DNA from: Antedon mediterranea
Taxonomy: Eukaryota > Echinodermata > Crinoidea > Comatulida > Antedonidae
Length of the DNA: 64,000 nucleotides
Direction of reading: 5' to 3'
Assembly (NCBI RefSeq): GCF_964355755.1
Contig: NC_092680.1
Span: forward strand, 67,001 to 131,000
Of this stretch, positions 32,401-38,400 are shown piece by piece. The translations under genes were made by a program, and so were the position numbers. The notes below the pieces were generated by a model that worked only from the letters and a program-made list of their open reading frames with translations, had not been told where the DNA came from and did no database searches. How positions within the stretch are numbered: position 1 is the first letter of the stretch; each line of letters begins with the position of its first letter.

Positions 32401-35400
32401 GCATATCAAGCAGGCGGTCCGAGTTCGAGTCTCGGTTGGGGCGACTTTTTCTCATTCTCACAGATTTCCTCATCTTTATCGTTTCAAATTAATTAATTAA
32501 ATGTCAGTATATCACCGGGCGGTTTAGAATTAATGTTCATGCCTCTTGTGTTTATATATATTATACATGGATAAAAGGGAGTAGATTTAACAGTTTCTTT
32601 AAAAAGCAACAAAATTGGCAGATGAGAGTATGCGTTTATCAAATATTTAGAAAATGTTATGAGAAATGTGATGTAAGATATTAACACCCCGACTAATCAT
32701 AATAAATCTAATCTAACGTAATCTAATATAATGTTTATCATAGATTATCTATTCGTTGATCCAGTTTTTCAAAATTATGAAATACCCAGCCAAACGGATG
32801 TGATATGGGATGAGAGAAAACCAATCGGCAACGGCCGCTTTGGAATGGTTTATTCATGCCCACTTAAGCAAGAAAATGGATTACACATTGTTGCAATAAA
32901 GACACCGTTGGGTATGGTCATTTATAATACAGTTGAACCTTCACCAAGCGTCGACCTTCGGGACCGGGAAAAGTTGCCGCTTTCGGGAGGTTCTGCTACT
33001 GCTGATAGAGGGACAAAATCATTGTTATGGCTATGCATGATGTTTTTCGGCGTTCTCAACGCAACGGGCCTCTAAATTCTCCAGCTAATTATATTTTATT
33101 GTTTATGATCAGTAGAATTATTTATGATTATCAGACAAATTTTAAAAGCTTCTATCATTTGAAAATGGTCGGTCAAAATCTGTGTAGTTTTGTCATCTAA
33201 TCTAACCGCTTCGAAATAAAGCTGATATATAAAGCACAATAAGTATCAAAATTTAGTGTATTATTGTTCTCAAAAGTCTACGAATTTTTCGAGTGGCCGC
33301 TTACGGGAGGTAATTTACCATACTAACAATCTAATTTTTAGTTTAAAAAATGGCCGCGGCTGCTAAAGGGAGGTATCAAATGCATTAATTAGATAGAAAG
33401 AACAATCTGGCTTTTGAAAGTGCGGCCGTTAAGGGAGGTGGCCGCTAAACGGGAGTTGGCCGCTCATAGAGGTTCAAGTTTCAACTGTAGCTAAAAAATA
33501 ATACAAGATATTATAGGGGCCGTTTTCCTTTTTGTGACAGTCACAATATTATAGCACATATCAATGCAGTAATCCTTACAATACCTTAAATTAAATAGAA
33601 TTTGTGGTATATATTGATATTTCAAATCATCGTAGGCATATGCCTATCATCTTATTAAATTAATATATACTATTTAAAATCAAAATCATCATAATATATT
33701 GATAATAAATTGTCTATTTGCAACGTTTTGTACAATAGTATCTATATTTATTTCCTCATCATTAGATACTGCATCAGCAGCCGAGAAAATGGATTTTAAA
33801 AAAGAAATTCAACTGATGGCACAGATTGGTAAACATATTAATATTATAGAACTAATTGGTTGTCGCACTGCGAAGGATCCGATGTACATCATTACCCCAC
33901 TAATGCAATACGGTTGTCTGTTAGAATTATTACGTAAAAGTGCAACGGTAAGTCAAACAACTCGTGTACAAAACATAGATGTTTTAGTTTTTTAGTATAG
34001 TTACTAAAATGTTTAGCTGCCGCCTTCAACACCTACTTTAATGGCTGTGTGACAGTGGCTTTGTAAACTAGTACATTGGGATAACCTGCCTTGTCTTGAA
34101 AGATGTACTAGGATCTTTTAAAGTGCACACGAGCATTTTGTGTACAGACGTTGATTGTGCTTATAGATTTACCGTACCTTGTTAAGTTTTAAAAATACAA
34201 ATAACTTGATTTGTAATGTAAATATTATTCTCATGCGGATTCCCATTTGTTTCAATCTTTTTCGATTCAATAAATGACAGAATCCATCTAGTTTTTGAGT
34301 TTTTTGTTGCTTTTCTTTTGTATCAGCTTTTGCTCTGCCCTCCAGTGACACAGATTGAAATTCATAATTCACTTGACAACGTTGATTTTATTTATAGATT
34401 AGTTTTTTGAGTTTTAAAATTTCTGTACGTAATCATTTCGTACTTGATTGATTTTATGTTATTAATTATTAAATCACATTAAATTGTATTATTCAGATGC
34501 AACAGAAAGGTGTATTTACTGACGAGATTTATGATTTGAGATTAAAAGATTTGTTTAGCATTAGTAGACAGATTGCTAAAGGAATGGTGAGTAATTATGA
34601 CCCGGTTACCGACTACACAAACTTAGACAAAATCTATCTGAAAGATTTGTTTAGCATTAGTAGACAGATCGCTAAAGGAATGGCGAGTAATTATGACCCG
34701 GTTACTGACTACACAAACTTAGACAAAATCTATATCAAAGATTTGTTTAGCATTAGTAGACAGATCGCTAAAGGAATGGTGAGTAATTATGACCCGGTTA
34801 CTGACTACACAAACTTAGACAAAATCTATCTGAAAGATTTGTTTAGCATTAGTAGACAGATCGCTAAAGGAATGGTGAGTAATTATGACCTGGTTACCGA
34901 CTACACAAACTTAGACAAAATCTATCTGAAAGATTTGTTTAGCATTAGTAGACAGATCGCTAAAGGAATGGCGAGTAATTATGACCCGGTTACCGACTAC
35001 ACAAACTTAGACAAAATCTATCTGAAAGATTTGTTTAGCATTAGTAGACAGATCGCTAAAGGAATGGTGAGTAATTATGACCTGGTTACCGACTACACAA
35101 ACTTAGACAAAATCTATCTGAAAGATTTGTTTAGCATTAGTAGACAGATCGCTAAAGGAATGGCGAGTAATTATGACCCGGTTACCGACTACACAAACTT
35201 AGACAAAATCTATCTGAAAGATTTGTTTAGCATTAGTAGACAGATCGCTAAAGGAATGGTGAGTAATTATGACCTGGTTACCGACTACACAAACTTAGAC
35301 AAAATCTATCTGAAAGATTTGTTTAGCATTAGTAGACAGATCGCTAAAGGAATGGTGAGTAATTATGACCCGGTTACTGACTACACAAACTTAGACAAAA

Positions 35401-38400
35401 TCTATCTGAAAGATTTGTTTAGCATTAGTAGACAGATCGCTAAAGGAATGGCGAGTAATTATGACCCGGTTACTGACTACACAAACTTAGACAAAATCTA
35501 TCTGAAAGATTTGTTTAGCATTAGTAGACAGATCGCTAAAGGAATGGCGAGTAATTATGACCCGGTTACCGACTACACAAACTTAGACAAAATCTATCTG
35601 AAAGATTTGTTTAGCATTAGTAGACAGATCGCTAAAGGAATGGTGAGTAATTATGACCCGGTTACCGACTACACACACTTAGACAAAATCTATCTGAAAG
35701 ATTTGTTTAGCATTAGTAGACAGATCGCTAAAGGAATGGCGAGTAATTATGACCCGGTTACCGACTACACAAACTTAGACAAAATCTATCTGAAAGATTT
35801 GTTTAGCATTAGTAGACAGATCGCTAAAGGAATGGCGAGTAATTATGACCCGGTTACCGACTACACAAACTTAGACACAATCTATCTGAAAGATTTGTTT
35901 AGCATTAGTAGACAGATCGCTAAAGGAATGGCGAGTAATTATGACCCGGTTACCGACTACACAAACTTAGACAAAATCTATCTGAAAGATTTGTTTAGCA
36001 TTAGTAGACAGATCGCTAAAGGAATGGCGAGTAATTATGACCCGGTTACCGACTACACACACTTAGACAAAATCTATCTGAAAGATTTGTTTAGCATTAG
36101 TAGACAGATCGCTAAAGGAATGGCGAGTAATTATGACCCGGTTACCGACTACACACACTTAGACAAAATCTATCTGAAAGATTTGTTTAGCATTAGTAGA
36201 CAGATCGCTAAAGGAATGGCGAGTAATTATGACCCGGTTACTGACTACACACACTTAGACAAAATCTATCTGAAAGATTTGTTTAGCATTAGTAGACAGA
36301 TCGCTAAAGGAATGGCGAGTAATTATGACCTGGTTACCGACTACACAAACTTAGACAAAATCTATCTGAAAGATTTGTTTAGCATTAGTAGACAGATCGC
36401 TAAAGGAATGGCGAGTAATTATGACCCGGTTACCGACTACACAAACTTAGACAAAATCTATCTGAAAGATTTGTTTAGCATTAGTAGACAGATCGCTAAA
36501 GGAATGGCGAGTAATTATGACCTGGTTACCGACTACACAAACTTAGACAAAATCTATCTGAAAGATTTGTTTAGCATTAGTAGACAGATCGCTAAAGGAA
36601 TGGCGAGTAATTATGACCTGGTTACCGACTACACAAACTTAGACAAAATCTATCTGAAAGATTTGTTTAGCATTAGTAGACAGATCGCTAAAGGAATGGC
36701 GAGTAATTATGACCCGGTTACCGACTACACAAACTTAGACAAAATCTATCTGAAAGATTTGTTTAGCATTAGTAGACAGATCGCTAAAGGAATGGTGAGT
36801 AATTATGACCTGGTTACCGACTACACAAACTTAGACAAAATCTATCTGAAAGATTTGTTTAGCATTAGTAGACAGATCGCTAAAGGAATGGCGAGTAATT
36901 ATGACCCGGTTACCGACTACACAAACTTAGACAAAATCTATCTGAAAGATTTGTTTAGCATTAGTAGACAGATCGCTAAAGGAATGGCGAGTAATTATGA
37001 CCCGGTTACCGACTACACAAACTTAGACACAATCTATCTGAAACTTCTGTGGTCTTGAAATCAATTGAAAATACTAATTTAACCCAAAATGAACGATATC
37101 ATTTATTGTGTTCATAAGTTATTATTCATTCTTATACTTTTTAGTACTGTATATAGTGTTGCATTTCAATTTTTTCGTTAGGAATATATTTCCAGCTTGA
37201 GAATAGTACACGGAGACCTGGCCGCTCGAAATGTTCTTATAGGCAAAGGACTTCTAGTGAAGATTGGTGATTTTGGCTTGGGACAAGATACATATGAGAA
37301 AGGATATCTAAGATTAAAAGACGGAGAAGTTCCAGTAAAGTGGTATAGTTTGGAAACACTGCTAGAGCATTACATGACACCTATGAGTGACGTGTAGGTT
37401 GGAATACATTAATCATAAATAATTCTGTAAGACAAAAAATGTCATCGTATCTAAGAAAGTGGGGATGCAATATAGTAGGGAGCTTTCGATTGGGTACTAC
37501 CGACCTGGTCAGCGCAATCGACGTGTCTTCACTCGTACATTTAACAACCAATGTAGGCCCGGTACATAAGGTACAGTAAATTTAACAACCAAGGTAGGCC
37601 CGGTACATAAGGTACATTATTACATTTAACAACCAAGGTAGGCCCGGTACATAAGCTACATTTAACAACCAATGTAGGCCTGGTACATAAGGTACAGTAC
37701 ATTTAACAACCAATGTAGCCCGGTACATAAGGTACATTTAACAACCAATATAGGCCCGGTACATAAGGTACATTAGTACATTTAACAACCAATATAGGCC
37801 CGGTACATAAGGTACAGTACATTTAACAACCAATATAGGCCCGGTACATAAGGTACAGTACATTTAACAACCAATATAGGCCCGGTACATAAGGTACAGT
37901 ACATTTAACAACCAATGTAGGCCCGGTACATAAAGTACATTATTACATTTAACAACAAATGTAGGCCCGGTACATAAAGTACATTATTACATTTAACAAC
38001 CAATATAGTCCCGGTACATAAAGTACATTATTACATTTAACAACAAATGTAGGCCCGGTACATAAGGTACAGTACATTTAACAACCAATGTAGGCCCGGT
38101 ACATAAGGTACATTAGTACATTTAACAACCAATGTAGGCCCGGTACATAAAGTACATTATTACATTTAACAACAAATGTAGGCCCGGTACATAAGGTACA
38201 GTACATTTAACAACCAATGTAGGCCCAGTACATAAGGTACAGTACATTTAACAACCAATGTAGGCCCGGTACATAAGGTACAGTACATTTAACAACAAAT
38301 GTAGGCCCAGTACATAAGGTACAGTACATTTAACAACCAATGTAGGCCCGGTAAATAAGGTACAGTACATTATATACCTTTTTTTTTTATCACAGATGGT

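Follow-up and report, generated by a model that had tools for sequence, protein, structure and literature searches.

A 26-unit minisatellite over the edge of a kinase exon in a receptor tyrosine kinase gene of the crinoid Antedon mediterranea

The DNA analysed here (referred to as the window: 64,000 nucleotides of Antedon mediterranea, contig NC_092680.1, positions 67,001 to 131,000) lies at 67-131 kb of the contig called C11 below, and the assembly searched comprises 354 Mb in 18 contigs, in which a search for COX1 gave no match. The window contains an intact gene for a receptor tyrosine kinase (20470-39913, plus strand), with 19 exons and 785 codons whose sole stop is terminal, and the subject of this report is an array of tandem repeats that straddles the end of exon 14 of this gene. 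All 18 introns of the gene model were of the GT...AG type, and the joined exons formed a single open frame. Pfam matched the kinase part of the spliced protein to PF07714 (1.2e-78) and detected an fn3 domain in the ectodomain (1.5e-7); a hydrophobic N-terminal start and a transmembrane stretch were judged by eye only. The DFG motif, the HxD loop, and the VAIK lysine of kinases were all present, with the R of HRD replaced by G.

Exon 14 (34497-34586, plus strand) is followed by a first donor, GTGAGT, at 34587, and exon 15 (37182-37393, plus strand), which begins with GAATATATTTCC at 37182, offers an acceptor open to any donor of the array. The array itself (34545-37043, plus strand) consists of 26 tandem units of 96 bp, each of them combining 42 bp from the end of exon 14 with 54 bp from the start of the intron, and it is flanked by AAA at both outer ends. 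The units showed 98% matches and fell into 11 distinct versions, with 8 of the 26 identical to the consensus, and the similarity of neighbouring units was in slight excess over that of a random order (p about 0.055). Such near-identical tandem units with shared variants demonstrate an expansion of the minisatellite type.

The frame of exon 14 (plus strand) stayed open across all 26 units and was closed just past the last one (KLLWS and a stop). In every unit, G[T/C]GAGT is preceded by GGAATG, so that each of them would join exon 15 in phase 0. The donor was GT in units 1, 3, 4, 6, 8, 9, 12, and 24 (8/26) and GC in the other 18, that is, 7 GT and 18 GC among the 25 donors beyond the first. These results bore out much of an earlier note on this stretch, which had described the 26-fold amplification of the exon end with its donor, a stop-free unit of 32 codons in frame, a phase-0 junction to exon 15 from every unit, and the same donor counts, with GT in unit 1. 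Pfam also reported a match of the whole array frame to NCD2 (1.5e-28); no single stretch passed, and we took this as a 26-fold weak match and set it aside.

Across the 26 copies, the unit presented 8 variable positions. Four of them (30, 44, 59, and 66) varied between C and T, with T in 1, 8, 7, and 5 of the 26 units, respectively, position 30 being T in unit 1 alone. These four positions are exactly the only four CpGs of the unit, a coincidence with a chance of 1 in 2380 if the sites are drawn from the 17 Cs and of 1 in 111930 if they are drawn from the 42 pyrimidines. The donor has its second base at position 44, so that the GT/GC split is one of four C/T splits of the same kind. Regarding the codons, 2 of the variable sites were silent (30 and 66) and 5 led to replacements (44, 59, 76, 86, and 94/96), so that no sign of protein constraint on the array is seen. 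The donor site appeared in all four combinations with each of positions 59, 66, and 76, and therefore recurrence or exchange between units is needed. With a scoring matrix made from 30 real donors (scores from 1.6 to 13.5), a small set to which the exon 14 junction in family loci contributed 13, the GT units scored 10.8 and the GC units 4.2.

The same gene carries two other arrays at exon edges. The second one (24026-26483, plus strand) comprises 17 units of 142 bp with the end of exon 7 and its donor, CAG/GTACGT, the first donor being at 24105, and GT was present in all 17 units. Of the 16 donors beyond the first, numbers 2, 3, 4, and 17 were tried, and splicing from them would lead to 7, 13, 8, and 51 stops, respectively, in the stretch tested. 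The donors of exon 7 are GT in every unit although their misuse brings stops, which shows that they have not been weakened there. The third array (27566-27790, plus strand) has three units of 74 bp with the acceptor TTTTGCAG and the beginning of exon 11, the transmembrane exon; its first two acceptors lead into stops, and the third, from which the exon starts at 27731, gives an open frame. As both arrays bring stops if misused, an in-frame unit is not needed for arrays of this kind to arise.

The genome search for paralogues yielded 77 matches, a large share of which were the array's own units, and 20 family loci outside the window (L010-L029) were cut out for comparison and sorted by eye. An exon ending at the junction of exons 14 and 15 (GM/EY in protein letters) was recognisable in 13 of the 20 (L010, L011, L012, L015-L021, L023, L025, and L028), and the first donor at this intron was GT in all 13; the GT of unit 1 is thus as expected, and GC is probably derived. 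In L013 and L014, no exon with the GM/EY junction was found within about 1.5 kb, and in L022, L024, L026, L027, and L029 the match was seemingly continuous, without an intron at this site. The best match outside the window among those listed, L010 (C11:1156089-1159301, at 1.157 Mb, 72% identity), contained on its reverse strand (1094-1196) a perfect tandem duplication of 51 bp, in two copies, over the GM/EY edge, with 22 bp of exon end and 29 bp of intron in each unit and GTAAGT in both copies. It does not share its end points with the 96-bp unit and is thus probably the consequence of a separate event, and the presence of an exon-edge duplication with other end points in 1 of the 13 loci indicates that the process recurs. 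The repeat finder detected nothing across the edge at the other 12 junctions, nor at either end of the matched exon-15 part in the 20 loci.

Repeats at exon edges are known in lancelets as "mirages", the first paper on them reportedly being Canestro 2002, as cited by later lancelet papers. Mirages are minisatellite-like duplications of exon-intron boundaries in the Adh3, globin, troponin C, and PGBD5 genes, which include in each unit a portion of exon, the splice site, and a portion of intron, sit at 5' or 3' exon edges, and vary in copy number among haplotypes or assemblies; the one in PGBD5 has a unit of 108 bp, divisible by 3, that adjoins the 5' splice site, and normal mRNA was reported for mirage-bearing Adh3, globins (BflGb6, BflGb9), and troponin C (in the sections of PMC3087553 and PMC3902484 used here). 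Like them, the exon 14 array is made of a tandem minisatellite-like unit (26 x 96 bp) that spans a real exon-intron boundary and keeps the splice signal in many, but not all, of its copies (GT in 8/26, GC in 18/26). A further mark of mirages is concerted evolution in which the edge unit stands apart, and here the exon 14 array gave mixed signs: T at position 30 was peculiar to unit 1, and adjacent units were little more similar than in a shuffled series. In contrast to the mirages, as described in those same sections, the arrays at exons 14 and 7 reach 26 and 17 units, versus 2 to 7 in lancelets (the Adh3 numbers not being among these), three exon-edge arrays are found in one gene, and the 96-bp unit is open throughout. 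By its sequence, the array at exon 14 is a long member of this known kind of exon-edge repeat, and the L010 repeat is possibly a young mirage, at the start of such an array. Rogers, and Gao and Lynch, are said to have described the creation of introns by tandem duplication of AG/GT segments, where the duplication likewise carries splice signals; here, an old intron appears to have been enlarged by the array, and no new one was seen.

The explanation that we consider quite probable is that the array is a mirage, an exon-edge minisatellite in which the first donor at 34587 is used, the open frame is due to chance or tolerated, and the GT/GC differences are ordinary C/T variation at CpGs. A slip or an unequal exchange, for which a pair of AAA sites may have served, would have duplicated 96 bp of the exon 14 edge, and this duplicated segment would then have expanded to 26 units in minisatellite fashion. 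Judging from the lancelet mirages, the first donor is most likely the one chosen, and the other 25 would be intronic and mostly ignored. The open frame would most likely be a product of chance, or simply tolerated: 3477 of 9031 windows of 18 codons were open in the given frame in the non-array introns of the gene, and since one length in three is a multiple of 3, the chance of one open 96-bp unit comes to about 0.13. The GT/GC split would correspond to C/T variation at CpGs spread by copying, rather than to a weakening donor by donor; GC may stem from a single change in an early copy that then spread by array turnover, and the GT of later units may have been kept or regained.

Several observations weigh against this explanation. 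The 42 bp derived from the exon are invariant among units 2-26, and the 21 T cells at the CpGs of the array are accompanied by zero G/A differences there, which is at odds with a symmetric decay of methylated CpGs if the events were many. The exon 7 array showed no CpG bias, since several of the changes in its 13 variable columns (units 2-17) are transitions off CpG, and its two shared CpGs are unchanged. Moreover, the seven extra GT donors (10.8) are inside the range of the real donors, and the sequence gives no sign of their silence. Finally, the duplication of L010 is in frame and stop-free, use of its second donor would place 17 extra residues ahead of EYISS, and no out-of-frame duplication was seen at the GM/EY junction among the 13 loci. 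Two in-frame cases at one junction make chance less likely than a single case does, and the L010 duplication thus lowers the odds of the mirage explanation and somewhat raises those of a ladder of isoforms.

Such a ladder, in which several GT units would be used, each adding 32-residue modules, and the kinase would receive an insert of variable length between helices D and E, is the alternative that survives best, although we consider it unlikely. The earlier note had placed the insert after helix E, ahead of the catalytic loop, and this position has to be corrected: the predicted product of unit n has n-1 modules, the last of which joins exon 15 and supplies helix E, leaving it whole. Since the beginning of helix E is restored in every unit, the insert would fall before it, at the kinase-insert position, in the same D-E loop as the kinase insert of receptors of the FGFR/PDGFR type. 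Against PF07714, the modelled product from the unit 3 donor reached 270.2 bits, divided over two stretches, compared with 264.5 without the insert, and its best stretch (193-352) begins within the final module, a few residues ahead of the KDLF there. In our alignments, the D-E loop was 4 residues longer in FGFR2 and 12 shorter in EGFR than here; with the Pfam score kept and the loop variable in length, the fold would be no bar to a ladder. The open frame in 26 of 26 units, the score of the GT units as donors (10.8), and the L010 duplication, which is of another extent but lies in frame at this junction and would give 17 additional residues from its second donor, are also in favour of these isoforms, but a single open frame has a chance of about 0.13, replacement sites exceed silent ones in the unit, the arrays at exons 7 and 11 are unable to yield comparable products, and splicing was reported to be undisturbed by the lancelet mirages (PMC3087553, PMC3902484, in the sections mentioned above). 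A particular form of the idea, to which we give slightly less credit still, is that the GT units are used at a low level, giving a kinase insert of +32 residues per unit, that each individual owes its isoform mix to the length of the array and its GT/GC state, and that L010 is a second, young case. If the ladder were true, a minisatellite would lead directly to variable protein inserts.

A further suggestion of the earlier note was that most of the extra donors had been weakened while unit 1 kept its GT; selection would then have changed them from GT to GC, protecting splicing from unit 1. This possibility would be in agreement with the GT of unit 1 while 18 of the 25 extra donors are GC, with the low score of GC (4.2 versus 10.8), and with the GT found in the 13 family loci that have the intron, from which GC is probably derived. 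However, the donor is only one of four CpG sites with C/T variation, the other three being divided in a similar way, with T in 7, 5, and 1 of the 26 copies, and it occurs in all four combinations with sites 59, 66, and 76, as expected from recurrence or exchange. In addition, the donors of the exon 7 array are intact in 17 of 17 units despite the stops that follow their misuse, and the second donor of L010 is likewise intact. Selective weakening is therefore not supported, and we regard it as very improbable.

There is hardly any likelihood that the array is a coding repeat, with a longer ancestral exon or an exon derived from a paralogue as its source and the intron-like part being protein. 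The 18 intron-derived codons look plausible as protein by eye, but the exon like exon 14 ends at the GM/EY intron in 13 family loci without the extra stretch, the unit-like part was confined to the array in the protein search, the DNA search (with common words skipped) gave no other genomic place among the matches listed, and the frame of the array reaches a stop ahead of exon 15. The derivation of the 96-bp unit from a paralogous exon was rejected in the same way, as it was not supported by the protein search, the DNA search, or the family loci. An assembly artefact, an error to which tandem arrays are commonly exposed, is just as implausible, given the distinct variants in irregular unit order and the different units in the other arrays of the gene.

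Provided that the mirage explanation holds, minisatellites at exon edges can grow to 26 units, and three of them can share a gene that stays open, and the locus would represent a natural test of donor choice among many near-identical donors. The two-copy version in L010 would illustrate the beginning of an array at an exon edge.

Minisatellites, defined by a period of at least 20, at least 2.5 copies, and a length of at least 100 bp, accounted for 17,646 of the 64,000 bases of the window. Within the kinase gene, two more were found off the exon edges, a 41-bp one in the intron after exon 15 (37535-38371, plus strand) and a 25-bp one in intron 3 (22250-23012, plus strand). Three of the five arrays of the gene straddle an exon edge, and random placement gave at least three in 4.8% of the trials, a value that is too weak to claim a preference for exon edges. 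Under the same limits, by which the two-copy repeat of L010 is left out, the 20 family loci contained 113 bases of minisatellite in 64,536, and no array was found in an 8-kb stretch with fn3 exons, so the density is local. Location near the chromosome end was considered as a cause of this density and was not established, as minisatellites made up 8,366 of 57,000 bases in the chromosome-end samples (17 loci) and 8,780 of 59,000 in the interior ones (17 loci; p 0.22); in this comparison, L051 (C11 at 180 kb, 0 bases) was listed apart and L049 (C11:1-4000), which is all N, was excluded.

Other features were noted in the window. Intron 11 of the kinase gene holds an insertion (28031-30715) that resembles a Penelope-like element, in which a GIY-YIG frame (PF01541, 3.2e-5) accompanies a reverse-transcriptase frame (PF00078, 1.8e-4, under the curated cut-off). 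A minus-strand gene at about 8180-16550, with several intronic minisatellites, has exons that resemble human GKAP1, and Pfam gave nothing above the cut-off for it; a possible mini-exon within the array at 14632-15362, on the minus strand, was set aside by eye, as the flanking exons seem to join without it. Two arrays share the same 51-bp unit, at 9937-11828 (37 copies) and 13525-14443 (18 copies), with about 1.7 kb between them, and this spacer, judged by eye, ends in apparent inverted repeats (CAGGCCTCGAATTT... with its complement), which would fit the insertion of a DNA transposon into one array. At 45380-46160, numerous palindromic pieces (GCGCAATTT/AAATTGCGC) were seen by eye, part of them as an array detected by the repeat finder, and a 23-bp array of about 90 copies at 59891-62320 showed a strong strand bias, with a GC skew of -0.55 at 60-62 kb.

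Outside the window, the locus L076 (C2:26861501-26867500) presented tandem cassettes of fn3 exons, with blocks 94-100% identical in self-comparison, and ten fn3 matches were listed at C2 26.862-26.880 Mb, mostly about 1.9 kb apart. Finally, L048 (C9:10000001-10004000) and L067 (C4:15000001-15003000) consisted entirely of tandem repeats and were satellite-like.

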